From positions 1-40,854 of the forward strand of contig JACDHV010000004.1 of assembly GCA_013820855.1 (NCBI GenBank): a DNA stretch of 40,854 bases, given 5' to 3'. Origin of the DNA: Gemmatimonadales bacterium (GTDB lineage Bacteria; Gemmatimonadota; Gemmatimonadetes; Gemmatimonadales; GWC2-71-9). Made by a program: the position numbers and the translations under genes. Below are positions 33,158-40,854 of the stretch, in pieces. Positions within the stretch are counted from its first letter, which is position 1, and the number at the start of each line of letters is the position of its first letter. The notes under the pieces were generated by a model. It saw only the letters and a program-made list of their open reading frames with translations, did not search any database and was not told the origin of the DNA.

Positions 33158-36136
33158 ATGGCCAAGATCATCGTCAACGGCAGTGAGATTTCCTTCGAGC
33201 CCGGAGCCACGATCCTGGAGGCCGCGCGGGTCTCGGGTATCGACATCCCGACGCTCTGCTGGTACCCCAAGCTGCCCATCGTGGGGAACTGCCGGATCTG
33301 CCTGGTGTCGGTCCAGGGTCAGGGCAAGCTCCTGCCCGCCTGTGCCATGCCGGCCACGGAGGGCATGATAGTGGAGACGGAGTCGCCCGCGGCGGTGGAC
33401 AATCGCCGGGGCGTCCTCGGCCTTCTCCTCGAGCGCTATCCGGGCGAGCACCTCCAGAACGGGGGGCGGGCCCAGCCCCGCAACGAGTTCGAGCGCTACG
33501 TCACCCGCTACGATGTTCCGGTCCGCGATTTCCACGAGCTGCCGCTCCGCTCCGGCGACGAGCGTCCCGGCGACGTGATGATCCAGCACGACATGAGCAC
33601 CTGCATCCTCTGCACCCGCTGCGTGCGGGCCTGCGAGGACATTCAGGAAGTCGGCGTCCTCGACGTCGGGATGCGGGGCGAGCACGCGCAGATCATCGTC
33701 GGCGGCGACGGCGACCCCGACCACGCGGGATGTACTTGGTGCGGCGAGTGCGTGCGGGTCTGCCCCACCGGCGCCATCTTCGAGTTCATCCCCAAGCAGC
33801 GGTTCGGGTCCGAGGCCGTCCGCACTCCCGACAAGGTGGCGCGCTCGGTCTGTCCCTACTGTGGCGTGGGCTGCCAGATCGATCTCCAGATCAAAGGCGA
33901 CCAGATCATGCGGGTCACCTCGCCCAGCATCGAGGAGACCACGCCGAATCAGGGCTCGACCTGCGTCAAGGGCCGCTTCGGCTACGACTTCCCGATGCAT
34001 CGGGACCGGCTGGTGACGCCCCTCATCCGCAAGGGGTGGATGCACGACGGCGAGCGATGGGTGTGGACCGGCGAGTGGCCCCGGCACCGCGAGGGGCCCT
34101 GGCAGACCATCGAGGAGATGGGCACCCGGCGCAAGCCGCGGCCGCCCAGCCGCAGCGTCGGCAAGCCGCCGATGACAGGGATGCCCAACCTGGAGCAGGA
34201 GGACGTGCGCGACCGCGTCGCCACGCCGCCGGCGTGGTACAGCGCCTTTCGGGAGGCCACCTGGGACGAGGCGCTCAGCCTCTCCGCCCAGGAGCTGAAG
34301 CGAATCCGCGACACCAGCGGCCCCAACGCCCTGGCGGCGCTCTCCTCGGCGAAGTGCAGCAACGAGGACAACTACGCCTTCATGCGAATGGTGCGGGCCG
34401 GGTTCGGCACCAACAGCGTGGACCACTGCACGCGGCTCTGTCACTCGAGCTCGGTGGCCGCGATGAGCCGCGCGCTGTCCACCTCGGCCGCATCGGGCTC
34501 GATGCGCGAGATCGAGGAGGCGTGCGACGTCATCTTCATCTCCGGCGCCAACACCACGGAGACCCACCCGGTCTTCGGCGCGCTGATCAAGCGGGCGGTG
34601 GCCAAGGGCGCGCGGCTCATCGTCGCCGACGTGCGCCGCACCGAGCTCGCCGATCTGGCCGACGTGCATCTCCAGATGGTGCCGGGCACCGATGTGGCGC
34701 TCTACAACGCGATGGTGAACCACATCATCGCCGCCGGGCTTTCCGACCGGGAGTTCGTCGAGAAGCGGACCCACGACTTCGAGAAGGTGAAGGAGTCGGT
34801 GGCGGGCTACACGCCGGAGAACGCGGCCAAGATCACCGGCATTCCGGCGGCGACGATCCGCGCCGCCGCGGAGATGTATGCCCGGGGCCCGCGCACCTCC
34901 ACCCTGTGGGCCATGGGGCTCACCCAGCACAACACCGGCACCGACATCGTGGCGAGCCTGCTCAACCTCATGCTCGCCTGCGGGATGATCGGGAAGTGGG
35001 GCGCCGCGATGCTCCCCATCCGGGGGCAGAACAACGTGCAGGGCGCCAGCGACATGGGCGCGATCCCCTTCGCGTACACCGATTACCGGCCCGTCACCGA
35101 TCCGGCCAACCGGGCCGAATACGCGCGAGCCTGGCGGGTGCCGGAAGCGTCGCTCTCGCTCAAGCACGGGCTCATGGTCACCGAGATGGTGCAGGACGGA
35201 AGCCCGGTTCACGGTCTGTACATCATGGGCGAGAACCCGGTGCTCTCCGACCCCAACATCTCCCACGCCGAGCACTGGGTTCGGGGGCTCGAGTTCCTCG
35301 CGGTGCAGGATCTCTTCCTCACCGAGACCGCCCGCTGGGCCGACGTGGTTCTGCCAGGCTCCTCCTTCGCGGAGAAATCGGGCACGTTCGTCAACACCGA
35401 CCGGCATATCCAGCTCACCGAGGCGGGCCTGGACCCGCCGGGTCAGGCCCGCCCCGATCTCGACATCCTGATCGAGCTGAGCAACCGGCTGGGCCTCGTC
35501 ACCGACTGGCGCTCGCCCGGCGACGTGATGCGCGAGATCGCGAGCGTCACGCCCTCCTGGCGCGGCGTGAGCTACGAGATGCTGGAGCGGCGCCGCTCGA
35601 TCCAATACCCGGTCCTCACGCCCGATTCGACCGGCACGCCCTTTCTCTTCCAGGACAGGTTTCCCACCCCCGACGGGAAGGCCCGCTTCGTGCCCGTCGA
35701 GTTCCTCGAGCCCGACGAGCTGCCGAACGAGGAGTTCCCCTACATCCTCAACACCGGCCGCCAGATGTACCATTGGCACACCGGGACCATGTCACGCCGT
35801 TCCGAGGGGCTCGACTCCCGGGAGCCGACGCCGGTCATCGAGATGCACCCCGGCGATGCCATCGACCTCGGCGTGGGCGAGGGGGACAGCGTCCGGGTCA
35901 CGTCCCGTCGCGGCACCGTGCTCGTCGGCGTCCGCATCTCCGACCGCCAGGCGCCCGGGCAGGTCTTCATGCCGATGCATTTCCGCGAGGCCGCGGCGAA
36001 CCTGCTGACCAATCCGCAGCTCGACCCCTATGCCCGCATCGCCTCGTTCAAGATCAGCGCGGTGCGGATCGAGCCGACGGCGGCACGGTCGTTCGCGACG
36101 GCGGCGCCCGCGGCGGCGATCGCAGCCAAAGCCTGA
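33158..36136 (+). CDS. Formate-dehydrogenase-like molybdopterin oxidoreductase, alpha subunit
   Basis: A 992-residue FdhA/FdsA-like enzyme. The N-terminal [2Fe-2S] domain has CWYPKLPIVGNCRICLVSV and LPAC. Two ferredoxin motifs follow (CILCTRCVRAC and CTWCGECVRVCPTGA), then the Mo-domain [4Fe-4S] (CPYCGVGC...TCVKGRFGYDF). The active-site loop is DHCTRLCHSSSV with Cys rather than Sec; PIRGQNNVQGASDMG carries the expected active-site Arg. The molybdopterin-binding C-terminus has NTGRQMYHWHTGTMSRRS. The usual CxxCxxxxxC motif after the 2Fe-2S domain is absent (GEHLQNGGRAQPRNEFE there), and about 60 extra residues precede FREATWDEAL. No beta/gamma subunit or fdhD is adjacent, so the electron partner is unknown. 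The substrate is probably formate, not proven. Confidence 0.9.
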   Translation: MAKIIVNGSEISFEPGATILEAARVSGIDIPTLCWYPKLPIVGNCRICLVSVQGQGKLLPACAMPATEGMIVETESPAAVDNRRGVLGLLLERYPGEHLQNGGRAQPRNEFERYVTRYDVPVRDFHELPLRSGDERPGDVMIQHDMSTCILCTRCVRACEDIQEVGVLDVGMRGEHAQIIVGGDGDPDHAGCTWCGECVRVCPTGAIFEFIPKQRFGSEAVRTPDKVARSVCPYCGVGCQIDLQIKGDQIMRVTSPSIEETTPNQGSTCVKGRFGYDFPMHRDRLVTPLIRKGWMHDGERWVWTGEWPRHREGPWQTIEEMGTRRKPRPPSRSVGKPPMTGMPNLEQEDVRDRVATPPAWYSAFREATWDEALSLSAQELKRIRDTSGPNALAALSSAKCSNEDNYAFMRMVRAGFGTNSVDHCTRLCHSSSVAAMSRALSTSAASGSMREIEEACDVIFISGANTTETHPVFGALIKRAVAKGARLIVADVRRTELADLADVHLQMVPGTDVALYNAMVNHIIAAGLSDREFVEKRTHDFEKVKESVAGYTPENAAKITGIPAATIRAAAEMYARGPRTSTLWAMGLTQHNTGTDIVASLLNLMLACGMIGKWGAAMLPIRGQNNVQGASDMGAIPFAYTDYRPVTDPANRAEYARAWRVPEASLSLKHGLMVTEMVQDGSPVHGLYIMGENPVLSDPNISHAEHWVRGLEFLAVQDLFLTETARWADVVLPGSSFAEKSGTFVNTDRHIQLTEAGLDPPGQARPDLDILIELSNRLGLVTDWRSPGDVMREIASVTPSWRGVSYEMLERRRSIQYPVLTPDSTGTPFLFQDRFPTPDGKARFVPVEFLEPDELPNEEFPYILNTGRQMYHWHTGTMSRRSEGLDSREPTPVIEMHPGDAIDLGVGEGDSVRVTSRRGTVLVGVRISDRQAPGQVFMPMHFREAAANLLTNPQLDPYARIASFKISAVRIEPTAARSFATAAPAAAIAAKA

Positions 36137-36195
36137 ACAACGTAGCGCGGCGTTCGGGACCTTCCATTCCGATGGCCGGCGGCTATTGGCCGTCC

Positions 36196-36201
36196 TATAT
36201 T
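36196..36201 (+). promoter_or_regulatory. -10-like hexamer before tdh
   Basis: TATATT in the 90-base spacer between the molybdoenzyme and tdh, 25 bases before the ATG. There is no convincing -35 at 16-18 bases. It may give tdh-kbl an independent promoter. Confidence 0.28.
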
Positions 36202-36226
36202 CCGCCCGACTTCTTCCTGGACCTCC

Positions 36227-37267
36227 ATGCGCGCTCTGGTGAAGGCGGGACCCGGACCCGGAATGGTCTTGCGCGAGGTCGCCAAGCCCGCCTGCGGCAC
36301 CACCGAGGTCCTGATCCGCGTCCGGCATGCCGGCGTCTGTGGTACCGATCTCCACATCTGGGAGTGGGACAGCTGGGCGAGCCGGCGGCTCAAGCCGCCG
36401 GTGATCGTGGGCCACGAGTTCGCCGGCGAGATCGTGTCGCTCGGCCAGGAGGCCGAGGCCGCCGGCCTGCTCGCCGTGGGCGACCTGGTGACGGCCGAGG
36501 GACACCTCGTCTGCGGGCACTGCCTTCAGTGCCGCCTGGGTGACGCGCATCTGTGCCGGCGCACCCAGATCATCGGCGTGGACCGTGACGGCGCCTTCGC
36601 CGACTTCATCGCGATGCCGGCTTCCAACGTCATCAGGCTCGACGGCATCCCCACCGAAGTCGGCGCCATCATGGACCCCATGGGCAACGCGGTGCACACG
36701 GTTCTGGAGGGGCGGGTGCCCGGCAGCATCGTCTTCGTGCTCGGCTGCGGGCCGATCGGCTGCTTCGCCGTCGGCGTCGCCCGCGCGGCGGGCGCCTCGC
36801 TGGTGATCGCCAGCGACTTCAACCCTCGCCGGCTGGAGCTGGCGCGCGCGATGGGCGCGCAGGTGACGCTCGATCCGGCGCACGACGACGTGCTGGCCCG
36901 GATCCGCGAGCTCACCGGCGGCGACGGCGTGGATCTGGTCTGCGAGATGAGCGGCCACCCCGACGGGCACGCCACGGCGTTCGCCGCGGCGCGGCTCGGC
37001 GGCCGGGTGAACCTGCTGGGCACGCCGAGCCGGACCACCGAGACCGACTTCGCGCGAGACGTCATCTTCAAGGGGCTCACGCTCTACGGCGTCACCGGCC
37101 GCAAGATGTACGAGACCTGGGATCAGATGCGGCGGTTTCTCCACGCCGGACAGCTCGATCCCCGGCCGGTGATCACCCACCGCTTTCCGCTGGAGTGCAT
37201 CGGCGACGCCATCCAGGTCATCAAGGCCGGCCAGGCGGGCAAGGTCATCCTGGAGGTCGAGGCGTGA
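36227..37267 (+). CDS. tdh: L-threonine 3-dehydrogenase
   Basis: A 346-residue zinc-dependent medium-chain dehydrogenase that oxidises L-threonine to 2-amino-3-oxobutyrate with NAD. It follows E. coli Tdh closely: HAGVCGTDLHIWEWDSWA (catalytic zinc Cys), VIVGHEFAGEIV, the structural zinc loop GHLVCGHCLQCRLGDAHLC, MDPMGNAVHTVLEG, the NAD motif VLGCGPIGCFAVGVARAAG, VIFKGLTLYGVTGRKMYETW and PVITHRFPL. All expected Cys are present. The stop is overlapped by the kbl GTG (GTGA), so both are made together. Confidence 0.93.
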   Translation: MRALVKAGPGPGMVLREVAKPACGTTEVLIRVRHAGVCGTDLHIWEWDSWASRRLKPPVIVGHEFAGEIVSLGQEAEAAGLLAVGDLVTAEGHLVCGHCLQCRLGDAHLCRRTQIIGVDRDGAFADFIAMPASNVIRLDGIPTEVGAIMDPMGNAVHTVLEGRVPGSIVFVLGCGPIGCFAVGVARAAGASLVIASDFNPRRLELARAMGAQVTLDPAHDDVLARIRELTGGDGVDLVCEMSGHPDGHATAFAAARLGGRVNLLGTPSRTTETDFARDVIFKGLTLYGVTGRKMYETWDQMRRFLHAGQLDPRPVITHRFPLECIGDAIQVIKAGQAGKVILEVEA

Positions 37268-38463
37268 GGAAGCCCCTGGAGCGCCGGCTGGAAGGCGAGC
37301 TGGAGCAGTTCATCCGCGATGGGGTGTACAAGCGGCCCAACTTCCTCGACAGCCCGCAGGGGCCGCGGGTGCGGATGGAGGGCCGCGGCGAAGTCATCAT
37401 CCTCTCCTCCAACAACTATCTCGGCCTGAGCGATCAGCCCGAGGTCATCGCCGCGGGGAAGGCGGCCCTCGACCGGTGGGGGGCGGGCACCGCCTCGGTG
37501 CGGTTCATCTGCGGGACCTTCACGGTGCACCGATCCTTGGAGGCCGCCTGTGCGCGGCTGGTCGGCACCCCGGCCGCACTCAGCTTCGGGAGCTGCTGGA
37601 ACGCCAACGAGGCCGTGCCGGGCACGCTGCTCGGCGAGGACGACATCGTCATCAGCGACCAGTTGAATCACGCCTCGATCATCGACGGCGTCCGGCTGGC
37701 CAAGGCGATCACCAAGTGCCAGACGGCCGTCTACAAGCACGCCGATCTCGCCGACCTGGAGCGGAAGCTGGCGGCGGCCCACGACCGGCGGGTGCGTCTG
37801 GTGATCACCGACGGCGTCTTCTCGATGGAAGGCGCGATCGCGCCGCTGCCCGACCTTCTCGATCTCTGCCGCAAGCACCAGGCGGTGCTGATGGTGGATG
37901 ACTCCCACGCGACCGGCGTGCTCGGCGCGGGCGGCCGGGGAACCGCCGAGCACTTCGGGCTGGTGGGCGAGGTGGACATCATCACCTCGACGCTGGGCAA
38001 GGCGCTCGGCGGCGCCGCCGGCGGGTTCGTCGCGGCCTCGGCCGCCACCTGCGACTACCTGACCCAACGCGCCCGCCCGCAGCTCTTCTCCAACGCGCTG
38101 CCACCGACGGTCGCGGCGAGCTCGCTCGCGAGCATCGAGTATCTCGAAGCCCACCCCGAGCGGGTCACCCGCCTGGGCGAGCAGTCCCGCTACTTCCGCG
38201 AGCGGCTGCGGGAGCTCGGCTTCAGTCCGCTGCCCGGCGAGACCCCGATCATCCCGGTGATCCTCGGGGAGACCTCGGCCGCGATCCGCATGAGCGACCT
38301 CCTCCTGGGCGAAGGGGTGTTCGTCACCGGCTTCGGCTACCCCGTCGTGCCGCAGGGACAGGCCCGGGTCCGCTGCCAGATCTCCGCGGCGCACACCAGG
38401 GAGGACCTGGACCAGGCGCTGGCCGCCTTCTCCAAGGTGGGACGACAGCTCGGCCTCATCTGA
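37264..38463 (+). CDS. kbl: Glycine C-acetyltransferase (2-amino-3-ketobutyrate CoA ligase)
   Basis: A 399-residue PLP enzyme of the alpha-oxoamine synthase family, converting 2-amino-3-oxobutyrate and CoA to glycine and acetyl-CoA. Visible motifs are ILSSNNYLGLSDQPEV, GAGTASVRFICGTFTVHRSLE, DQLNHASIIDGVRLA, VDDSHATGVLGAGGRGT and the PLP Lys in STLGKALGGAAGGF. The context beside tdh decides Kbl over related BioF or serine palmitoyltransferase. GTG at 37264 overlaps the tdh stop; the track ORF starting at 37195 lies inside tdh. Confidence 0.92.
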   Translation: MRKPLERRLEGELEQFIRDGVYKRPNFLDSPQGPRVRMEGRGEVIILSSNNYLGLSDQPEVIAAGKAALDRWGAGTASVRFICGTFTVHRSLEAACARLVGTPAALSFGSCWNANEAVPGTLLGEDDIVISDQLNHASIIDGVRLAKAITKCQTAVYKHADLADLERKLAAAHDRRVRLVITDGVFSMEGAIAPLPDLLDLCRKHQAVLMVDDSHATGVLGAGGRGTAEHFGLVGEVDIITSTLGKALGGAAGGFVAASAATCDYLTQRARPQLFSNALPPTVAASSLASIEYLEAHPERVTRLGEQSRYFRERLRELGFSPLPGETPIIPVILGETSAAIRMSDLLLGEGVFVTGFGYPVVPQGQARVRCQISAAHTREDLDQALAAFSKVGRQLGLI

Positions 38464-38494: not shown

Positions 38495-38715
38495 CCAGTC
38501 GGCCCGCCTCTTGCACCCGCAGCCCTTCCGACGGGTTGGAGAGTCCCGGCAGGGGTATCTGCAAGCTCATGATTGACAAGCAGATCACCTGGCCAACGTT
38601 CCCCCTCCCCTCCCGCGCTTTCCAGCACATTCCCCGCATTTTGACGTACCGCCACTGGGGACGCGGTAGGCGCCAGGGCCCGCCTGGTGCGGACACCTTA
38701 CGGAGGCAGTCTGTG

Positions 38716-39396
38716 ATGCGCATGCTCTCTCGCAGCATTCCGGTCGCGGCGCTGGCGCTGTCCCTGAGCGCGCTTCCTGCAGCCGCCCAGGAGCCCGGCA
38801 ACGGCAACTTCCAGTGGTACGTGGGTGGCCAGGGTGGGGTCATGTTCTTCGATACCCCGACTCAGGACCGTACCGGCATCCCGACCTTCGGCGGTCAGAC
38901 CCTGATCGTCGCCCGGCGGACCGGCCTGCTCCTCTCGGTCGAGGAGGGCGTGGGCTCGGACGAGACCAGCTCCTACAGCGACCTCAGCGGCACGCAGACG
39001 GTGACCTTCAACGATATCCGGAGATACTCCGCGGTGCTCATGGCCTTCCCGATCCGCGCCGCCGCGCAACCCTATCTCGGCGTGGGCTACGGAATCATGC
39101 ACGTGGTGAACCCGACCCCCACGAGTTTGGCGGCCTTCCAGAGCGATGCCGAAGAGCTCGGCAGCACCGGGTTCGGCACCTTCCTGGCCGGCATCACGTT
39201 CCAGCTCGGGCGATTCATGGCCTTCGGCCAGTACCAGATCACGACGAGCCCGAGCAACTCGGTCGTCGCCGACGCCGACGGCAACGCGGTCGCCTTCGGA
39301 CGGCTCCTCACCGGGCCGACGCACACCTTCAGCGGCGGTCTCCGCTTCGGTCTCGGGAGCGCCCGCGAGTCGGTGAAGACCGGCGGTTACAAGTAA
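38716..39396 (+). CDS. Outer-membrane beta-barrel protein (exported)
   Basis: A 226-residue protein with a standard signal peptide MRMLSRSIPVAALALSLSAL and cleavage expected at AAA-QEPG. The mature part alternates short amphipathic strands (WYVGGQGGVMFFD, AQPYLGVGYGIMHVV, GTFLAGITFQLGRFMAFGQYQI, HTFSGGLRFGLG), as in small OmpA-like or OmpW-like barrels. It ends KTGGYK without a C-terminal Phe. GGAGG nine bases upstream fixes ATG 38716 (GTG 38713 possible). Role unknown, perhaps a porin-like or structural surface protein. Confidence 0.78.
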   Translation: MRMLSRSIPVAALALSLSALPAAAQEPGNGNFQWYVGGQGGVMFFDTPTQDRTGIPTFGGQTLIVARRTGLLLSVEEGVGSDETSSYSDLSGTQTVTFNDIRRYSAVLMAFPIRAAAQPYLGVGYGIMHVVNPTPTSLAAFQSDAEELGSTGFGTFLAGITFQLGRFMAFGQYQITTSPSNSVVADADGNAVAFGRLLTGPTHTFSGGLRFGLGSARESVKTGGYK

Positions 39397-39409: not shown

Positions 39410-39459
39410 CACCGAAACACGACGGGCAGCGTGACAACGCTGCCCGTCGTGTTTCGGTG
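39410..39459. terminator. Bidirectional terminator hairpin, 22-bp perfect stem
   Basis: CACCGAAACACGACGGGCAG plus CG pairs perfectly with its complement around a six-base TGACAA loop. It lies 13 bases after the outer-membrane gene stop and 12 bases past the mpg stop on the other strand, so it can serve both convergent genes. Its inner CGACGGGCAGC is shared with the hairpin at 40065. Confidence 0.85.
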
Positions 39460-39471
39460 AGGTGCACTCGG

Positions 39472-40101
39472 CTAAACGCTCGCCCTCGCCCACCCTCCGG
39501 CACGACGTCTCGACACGTGCGGGTTGCCCTCGACCAGGAACCGGAGCGGCCAGTCGGCCGCCTTGGTGATGCCGATGCGGGGGGTGGTGGCGACCTCGAA
39601 AGGCGGAGACACCGTGGGCGGCAGCACGACGACCTCGGCGCCCGGCATCAGGCGGCCGTCGAGCTCGCGGGTGATGCCCAGGGCCTGACAGAGCTTCCCG
39701 GGCCCCGAGCAGAGATCCCGGTCGTCAACCCGGCCCCGGCGCGCCCGCATCGTCTCAATGCCTTCGACCGGCTCGAGCGCTCGCAGCAGGACCGCGCTCG
39801 CCGTGCCCCGGGCCTCGCACACGAGATTGGCGCACCAATGGATGCCGTACGACAAATAGACGTACCACGATGCCGGCGGGCCGAAGAGCGCGGCATTGCG
39901 CTCGTTCCGCCGGTGGAGATACCCGTGGGAGGCCGGGTCGCGATGGCCCAGGTAGGCCTCGGTCTCGACCACTCGCGCAGTGGTCGGCACCCCGCCGACG
40001 TGCGACACCACGAGAGCACCCAGCAGATCGCGCGCGACCACTTCGGCCGGTCGGTCGAAAAAAGCGACGGGCAGCGTGGCTGCCCGTCGGTGCGCCCTCA
40101 C
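39472..40101 (-). CDS. mpg: DNA-3-methyladenine glycosylase (AAG/MPG family)
   Basis: A 209-residue alkylbase DNA glycosylase of the Mpg fold (PF02245), which excises alkylated purines. It has LPVAFFDRPAEVVARDLLGALVV, catalytic Glu in VVETEAYLGHRDPASHG, RNAALFGPPASWYVYLSYGIHWCANLV, GPGKLCQALGIT and a C-terminal PRIGITKAADWPLRF. GTG at 40101 overlaps the upstream TGA (GTGA). Its codons for LPVAFFDR coincide with the hairpin and T6 of a terminator-like signal, so expression of mpg from the upstream gene may be attenuated. Confidence 0.92.
   Translation of the reverse strand: MRAHRRAATLPVAFFDRPAEVVARDLLGALVVSHVGGVPTTARVVETEAYLGHRDPASHGYLHRRNERNAALFGPPASWYVYLSYGIHWCANLVCEARGTASAVLLRALEPVEGIETMRARRGRVDDRDLCSGPGKLCQALGITRELDGRLMPGAEVVVLPPTVSPPFEVATTPRIGITKAADWPLRFLVEGNPHVSRRRAGGWARASV
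40058..40089 (-). terminator. Intrinsic-terminator-like hairpin inside the mpg start region
   Basis: On the minus strand CGACGGGCAGC pairs with GCTGCCCGTCG (11 bp, CAC loop), then one base and TTTTTT. It lies 9 bases past the stop of the upstream gene and within mpg codons 5-15. This is the best-formed terminator in the window, but it overlaps protein-coding sequence. Confidence 0.7.
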
Positions 40102-40854
40102 TCGGCCTTCTTCTTCGCCCGTGACCGGCCGCGCTTGACCGGCGCGGCGGGAGCGGGATCGGCATCGCTCCCGGCGGCCTCGGCTTTCGCCGCCTTGTCG
40201 GCCTTGGCAGCGGTGGTGGCCGCCGCCTTCTTCTTCCGGGGCGAGCGCTTCGGCTTGGCGGGCGTGGGCTCGCTCTCCTCGGCGGGCCCCTCCGTCTCGA
40301 GCACGACCGCCTCGACCGGCAGAGTCTCCGCGGGCGATGCCTCGATCTGCACCACGCCGATGAGCGGAATGTCGCCGGCGCGGATCGATCCCCGCGAGCC
40401 CCGGCGGAACCGCACACCGAAGCGCTGGCCGTTCTCCCGGGCTCCCGCCGGCGCCTCGGGGGCCGGCTCCGCCACCTCGGGAGTCTCAGCCGGGTCCGAC
40501 GTCGATCCGCCGGCAGGCGCGGATGCCGCCGAGACCGAAGGCGCCGGCGTTGTCGGGCCCGCGGAGCGGCTGCCCGTGATCTCGTAGTCGTCATCGCCCA
40601 CCTTCCGCACGTCGGCGATCTCCGCGTCGTTGGCCTGGCGGAGCAGCCGGGGAAATCGCGCCGGATCGAGCAGTGCGTCTTCCCGGCCGTGCAGAGCGGC
40701 CATGCGCAGTCGCAGCGCTTCCTGGGTCACCGGCCCGCGCAGCTCGCTCAGGGCCTGCGACATCAACTGGAACGCGCGGGCCAGCGAGAGCGCGCCGTCG
40801 GTGGGGCGCGGCCGGCTCGCCGCGTGCTCGCGGGTGGCCGGCTCGCGGCCCGGC
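40098..40854 (-). CDS. C-terminal part of a protein with basic tail (partial; possible NYN/OST-HTH type)
   Basis: The frame is open to the right edge, so the start at 40766 in the track is probably internal. The first visible part (ALSLARAFQLMSQALSEL, then DPARFPRLLRQANDAEIADV and VGDDDYEI) resembles a small winged-helix of the OST-HTH/LOTUS type found behind NYN nuclease domains, but this is weak. A Pro/Ala-rich spacer and a segment GVRFRRGSRGSIRAGDIPLIGVVQI follow. The end is a long Ala/Lys-rich tail (KRSPRKKKAAATTAAKADK and KRGRSRAKKKAE) typical of nucleic-acid-binding extensions. Translationally coupled to mpg. Confidence 0.6.
   Translation of the reverse strand, partial: PGREPATREHAASRPRPTDGALSLARAFQLMSQALSELRGPVTQEALRLRMAALHGREDALLDPARFPRLLRQANDAEIADVRKVGDDDYEITGSRSAGPTTPAPSVSAASAPAGGSTSDPAETPEVAEPAPEAPAGARENGQRFGVRFRRGSRGSIRAGDIPLIGVVQIEASPAETLPVEAVVLETEGPAEESEPTPAKPKRSPRKKKAAATTAAKADKAAKAEAAGSDADPAPAAPVKRGRSRAKKKAE

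Follow-up and report, generated by a model that had tools for sequence, protein, structure and literature searches.

Within codons 1-15 of mpg, the gene for a methylpurine-DNA glycosylase, lies a hairpin that together with a run of six T residues forms a strong intrinsic-terminator structure. It stands just beyond the point at which mpg overlaps the stop codon of a co-oriented gene encoding an NYN-LOTUS protein. The element is conserved beyond the needs of the encoded peptide, is specific to mpg and recurs with the same pair of genes. We think it probable that this intrinsic terminator of the NYN gene, because it overlaps the first codons of mpg, attenuates mpg, and that full mRNA is obtained through ribosome re-initiation or through leak.

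A terminator-like hairpin within the first codons of mpg

The window, that is, the whole stretch of 40,854 nucleotides that was analysed, belongs to the 3.49-Mb draft genome of an uncultured organism. Among relatives that bear a name, the nearest to this genome are MAGs of the Gemmatimonadales, a group of soil bacteria. The features of its right-hand end that concern us are the following.

38715-39396, plus strand: convergent gene, a short outer-membrane/secreted-protein-like ORF with a signal-like N-terminus and no Pfam match
39410-39459, no strand given: left hairpin, a perfect 23-bp stem with a 4-nt loop, terminator-like, with a weak T-run
39472-40101, minus strand: mpg, methylpurine-DNA glycosylase of the AAG/MPG family, 209 aa (PF02245, E = 8.5e-65)
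40058-40063, minus strand: T6 run 3' of the right hairpin, encoding Phe-Phe (FF)
40065-40089, minus strand: right hairpin, an 11-bp stem with a 3-nt loop, mpg nt 13-37, encoding RRAATLPV(A)
40098-40101, minus strand: GTGA overlap of the NYN-LOTUS stop and the mpg start, seen in the sequence, with the stop TGA at 40098-40100
40098-40854, minus strand: 3' part of the NYN-LOTUS gene, an ORF that runs off the window and has a Lys/Ala/Arg-rich tail

On the mpg strand the right hairpin reads CGACGGGCAGC-CAC-GCTGCCCGTCG, with CTTTTTT next. Codons for RRAA and LPV make up its arms, and those for FF the T-run. The stem is G+C-rich and present in the minimum-energy structure predicted by folding, and the T-run stands directly 3' of it on the same strand, as the sequence definition of an intrinsic terminator asks, along with a short loop and at least about 5 bp of stem. 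The hairpin follows the NYN gene and precedes the bulk of mpg, where a terminator would be expected, and the mpg frame traverses both of its arms, as expected of a translated frame over the stem of a ribosome-gated attenuator. When a stringent terminator definition was applied to the whole window in a control scan, the right hairpin was the sole match. Since the window's mpg has no other ATG, GTG or TTG between its start GTG and Phe14, the hairpin lies inside the coding sequence, which confirms the initial annotation in placing hairpin and T6 within the coding start. An Rfam search returned sub-threshold matches only, none of them at the right hairpin.

The gene upstream of mpg was characterized through its full-length orthologue L003, which matches NYN (PF01936, E = 2e-24) and, below threshold, OST-HTH/LOTUS (PF12872). 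The protein thus has three parts: an NYN domain (PIN-like RNase), an OST-HTH/LOTUS domain with a weak score, and a basic tail. Wherever a locus had enough sequence to tell, an NYN gene is found 5' of mpg (66/66 and 41/41, or 107/107 over the two families, f1 and f2), and the low-complexity basic tail was observed on this constant upstream gene of the 107 loci. With mpg itself present in 89/101 family genomes and 124/150 phylum genomes, mpg is a stable operon member and not a mobile gene. We know of no function that would tie an RNase to a DNA glycosylase. Elsewhere in the window, positions 33158-38463 hold genes of an ordinary kind: one for a formate-dehydrogenase-like large subunit (assigned by reading) and two, for a class I/II aminotransferase and a zinc alcohol dehydrogenase, that perhaps form a threonine-degradation pair.

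Conservation of the right hairpin

For the comparison of junctions, mpg orthologues were anchored on Phe14. A hairpin in the same place was detected in 18 distinct mpg genes including that of the window, the others having 54-72% Mpg identity. All 18 have an ATG or GTG exactly 39 nt 5' of Phe14, and in all of them it overlaps the stop of the preceding gene, in the form ATGA, GTGA or TAATG; in L012 and L128 a possible ATG or TTG also occurs within the hairpin loop. The T-run is interrupted in a few members (L011, L110 and L128). The pattern of stem plus T-run (T5) matched 14 of the 102 family genomes, every time at the coordinates of the mpg start, and neither this pattern away from mpg nor its reversed control was found in the 102 genomes. 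In the window and 20 related loci, stringent terminator-like structures comprised the right hairpin and a few situated just downstream of mpg.

In an Mpg tree from which the hairpin region was left out, the genes with the hairpin fall into a supported 30-row clade, in which they occur from the deepest branches on. Inside the same clade, the hairpin is absent from L009, L010, L014-L018 and their neighbours. This distribution fits one origin of the hairpin with several losses. As L009, L010 and L014-L018 have lost the hairpin yet keep the operon, the hairpin is not indispensable.

Selection at the level of the nucleic acid

When codons were redrawn synonymously according to each gene's own codon usage, 14 of the 15 genes with a T-run reached the observed stem and T-run in no more than 0.1% of the draws, the exception being L013 (0.85%). 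The codon for Phe14 is TTT in 15/18 hairpin genes versus 6/38 Phe codons elsewhere in the same genes (Fisher p = 1.7e-6, relatedness not corrected). In L011 and L013, the same ACGGGCAGC arm is read in another frame and encodes ATGS, not RRAA; the next outer pair is changed on both sides, from G-C to C-G, and the loop is one base shorter. L095 has an unrelated stem followed by T7 in the corresponding place, shortly after the mpg start. The first-family stem has a 9-bp core, ACGGGCAGC/GCTGCCCGT, that hardly varies, and 7 of its 11 pairs never do. Two-sided changes are limited to two outer pairs, a number that 345 of 500 shuffles also reach; strict covariation in the first family is therefore limited, because the core hardly varies. 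The redraws, the TTT bias, the arm read in two frames and the replaced stem indicate that the right hairpin and its T-run are kept by selection beyond the needs of the peptide, as nucleic acid.

A second family and another clade

In the second family (f2), in which named relatives, L019 and L024 among them, carry no label finer than Gemmatimonadetes, an ATGA or TTGA overlap opens many of the mpg genes and AACGCCGCGC-loop-GCGCGGCGTT follows at once. This hairpin encodes NAAPxARRS, well before LP..FY, and synonymous redraws gave it P values of 0-2%. Two-sided changes occur at four of its pairs, and none of the shuffles yielded as many such cells, a better outcome for covariation than in the first family. 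Its stem was present at mpg in 9/9 genomes tested, two of which had one further copy. The T-run is weaker (2-4 T), so that terminator function is less sure in this family. In L195, L203, L197 and L201, mpg starts farther on and the hairpin occupies the space between the NYN stop and this start, which reads as the plain form of the arrangement.

Another conserved hairpin, of 8-9 bp, was observed in 11 mpg genes of a different clade (L123, L125, L131, L133, L136, L138, L139, L148, L149, L151 and L154). It has the form GCGCGACAC-n-GTGTCGCGC, spans nt +9 to +29, counted from the codon of Phe14, and lies over FYARDTxxVAR. In the 11 genes the codon before Val ends in T (AGT, CGT or GGT); elsewhere in the genes, T is in the minority in such codons (88/325). 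No T-run follows this hairpin in the 11 genes.

The left hairpin

The left hairpin sits where mpg and the plus-strand gene converge, between their 3' ends, about 605 bases from the right hairpin, and has a fold z of about -10. Its T-run, TGTTT, is weak and is paired inside the stem. The initial annotation had called it a 22-bp bidirectional terminator: the perfect stem, which measures 23 bp, is indeed terminator-like and bidirectional action is plausible, but the weak T-run does not sustain the strong form of that claim. We regard the left hairpin as probably a separate, predicted 3'-end terminator. Sub-threshold Rfam matches to miRNAs on this hairpin were dismissed as chance. Long perfect hairpins (11-18 bp) with unrelated stems also follow mpg in L004, L007, L009, L017, L091 and L099; the varied stems look as if the 3'-end terminator had often been replaced.

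A search of the 3.49-Mb genome for the palindrome ACGGGCAGC-N3-20-GCTGCCCGT returned exactly two sites, the left and right hairpins, and the reversed-pattern control in the same genome returned 0 matches; two inverted repeats with a common stem do bracket mpg, as had been annotated, and the genome search that the annotation had proposed yielded no further site. The right hairpin is the left one minus 5 loop bases, and 14 consecutive nt on the mpg strand, CACGCTGCCCGTCG, are common to both. The sequence of the left stem was not found in the relatives; beyond the end of mpg, some have long hairpins of a different kind and others have none. Where comparable, these downstream hairpins have at most 6 nt in common with the right hairpins of their own loci, and a conserved left/right pair with a common stem was rejected on this ground. 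As far as sampled, the 14-nt identity thus appears private to this lineage. The chance of such a match within a 23-bp stem is about 1e-6 to 1e-5 per pair (a rough estimate from base composition only), which is so low that local copying is the likelier cause, and the left stem is probably a local copy made within this lineage. Despite the common stem, the sequence evidence makes the right and left hairpins different things. In one member of the genus, L113, a second ACGGGCAGC palindrome without a T-run occurs away from mpg (G061:C14:2198-2223) and precedes a gene whose product starts like a response regulator.

Proposed mechanism

RNA polymerase leaving the NYN gene would make the hairpin and would mostly stop in the U-tract, inside the mpg frame. 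Full mpg mRNA would arise when a ribosome that is done with the NYN gene re-initiates at the overlapping GTG or ATG and covers the 5' arm before the hairpin closes; a plain leak would be the alternative route. By the usual size of ribosome footprints, a ribosome at the NYN stop codon would extend over no more than the outer 2-3 nt of the stem, and one advancing along the first mpg codons would open it. Because the footprint differs in this way between the stop and the first mpg codons, mpg output would track coupling at the junction. Termination in the T-run, the gating by ribosomes, and which signal, if any, is read are all points that we infer from the sequence.

Attenuation of mpg had been suggested in the initial annotation, which had also named absence of the hairpin from orthologues of identical protein sequence, joined to a lack of termination, as evidence against it. 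This check did not refute the suggestion, which holds as regards anatomy and evolution, the hairpin and T-run at the stop/start overlap being conserved in diverged orthologues and beyond the needs of the peptide; its functional part is a prediction, and damage induction of mpg, also suggested, is unsupported. An attenuator of the trp type was considered and rejected, as there is neither a leader peptide with sensing codons nor a conserved competing structure: no competing anti-terminator was conserved, and the terminator fold won in 18/18 junction foldings.

More tentatively, and with the odds somewhat against it, the arrangement of NYN gene and mpg could be order-wide in the Gemmatimonadales. 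A terminator would stand in the first codons of mpg, and only transcripts that carry a re-initiating ribosome, or that are spared by the NYN-LOTUS RNase, would be completed; the sequence of the hairpin would turn over and its place would stay.

Alternative explanations

The peptide RRAATLPVAFF, when written in G+C-rich codons, might yield a palindrome and a T-run by itself, and because LP..FF is the conserved start of the Mpg domain, the protein does partly fix the 3' arm. Such a by-product of coding or chance is nevertheless highly improbable in view of the synonymous redraws, the arm read in two frames, the replaced stem of L095, the TTT bias and the restriction of the pattern to mpg starts, and it was rejected by the synonymous-codon null together with the control scan. 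We give just as little credence to the alternative in the initial annotation, by which a dispersed terminator repeat gave rise to both hairpins, having arrived with a mobile mpg. The two stems of this genome do have 14 nt in common and differ by a 5-nt loop insertion, as copies of a repeat might. Two sites in 3.49 Mb do not make a dispersed family, however; stem plus T-run occurs only at mpg in 14/14 positive genomes, and the relatives keep the right hairpin but not the left stem. A mobile cassette was likewise rejected, as mpg and its upstream neighbour are conserved: the presence of the gene is not patchy, and the neighbour is constant.

The hairpin might instead be a plain leaky terminator of the NYN-LOTUS transcript, with mpg expressed from constant read-through and with an overlap that reflects tight packing and no control by translation. 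The several second-family genomes in which it forms an ordinary intergenic terminator are in line with this explanation, as is the fruitless search for a conserved competing anti-terminator. In many genera, however, the hairpin is held in frame right after the overlapping start, where translation must affect it, which makes mere leakage rather unlikely. Recognition by a protein of the hairpin RNA or of the DNA palindrome would be another solution, for example if the NYN-LOTUS RNase cleaved or bound the mRNA of its own operon and so set the level of mpg. The nearly invariant core of the stem would suit such a sequence-specific element, as would the occurrence of a single type of stem in each family, once in each genome, the RNase-like neighbour in every locus of the two families and the cleavage of mRNA by eukaryotic NYN-LOTUS proteins (MARF1, PMC6294520). 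It is hard to reconcile with a strand-asymmetric T-run under selection, with a loop that differs by one base in L011 and L013 and is longer in the left copy, and with the wholly replaced stem of L095, and we judge it to be improbable.

Comparison with known systems

If our reading of translation-gated attenuation is true, nature would provide in the NYN-mpg junction a clean example of intrinsic termination that is gated by translation where two genes meet, an example that rests on a full terminator kept in coding sequence, an arm read in two frames and stems that differ among lineages. On this reading, how much of an alkylation-repair enzyme is made should depend on the coupling of ribosome and polymerase, for which the junction would offer one short test site. 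Terminator finders that leave out coding sequence would miss this class. ORF-internal termination and ribosome-gated termination are already known from the literature. A search of open-access literature, with most subscription journals outside its scope, found nothing on mpg attenuation or on Gemmatimonadetes terminators, and novelty is to that extent not certain.

In E. coli, the frd terminator is the ampC attenuator, so that the terminator of one gene attenuates the next; ampC is served by a promoter of its own, located in frdD, and starts only beyond the attenuator. The terminator of the NYN gene would similarly double as attenuator of the following gene, but unlike in frd/ampC the mpg hairpin is inside the coding sequence.

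In the pil1 leader of Streptococcus gallolyticus, an ORF extends into an intrinsic terminator, and its translation stops the hairpin from forming and so prevents termination, as shown by mutants (PMC3894217). A translated frame runs into an intrinsic terminator at mpg as well, by prediction; whereas pil1 has a leader peptide with phase-varying repeats, mpg carries the hairpin itself and has no leader peptide. Translation of an upstream gene can affect Rho-independent termination, according to a review of translational coupling between overlapping genes (PMC12548453). The 4-nt stop/start overlap (NTGA), a place of re-initiation in the review, would be one at mpg as well; the intrinsic terminator in the first codons after the overlap goes beyond that review, the main text of which does not contain the word 'terminator'. 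In E. coli, 3' ends inside ORFs and in 5'-UTRs have been attributed to premature termination, in some cases intrinsic, with regulatory effects (PMC7815308). The predicted termination in mpg would also take place in coding sequence, but unlike those 3' ends, which were mapped in one species, it has a single position conserved across genera with a stem that turns over. Finally, the upstream gene has NYN nuclease and LOTUS-like domains like those of MARF1, the NYN-LOTUS endoribonuclease of eukaryotes that cleaves mRNA (PMC6294520); unlike MARF1 it is bacterial.
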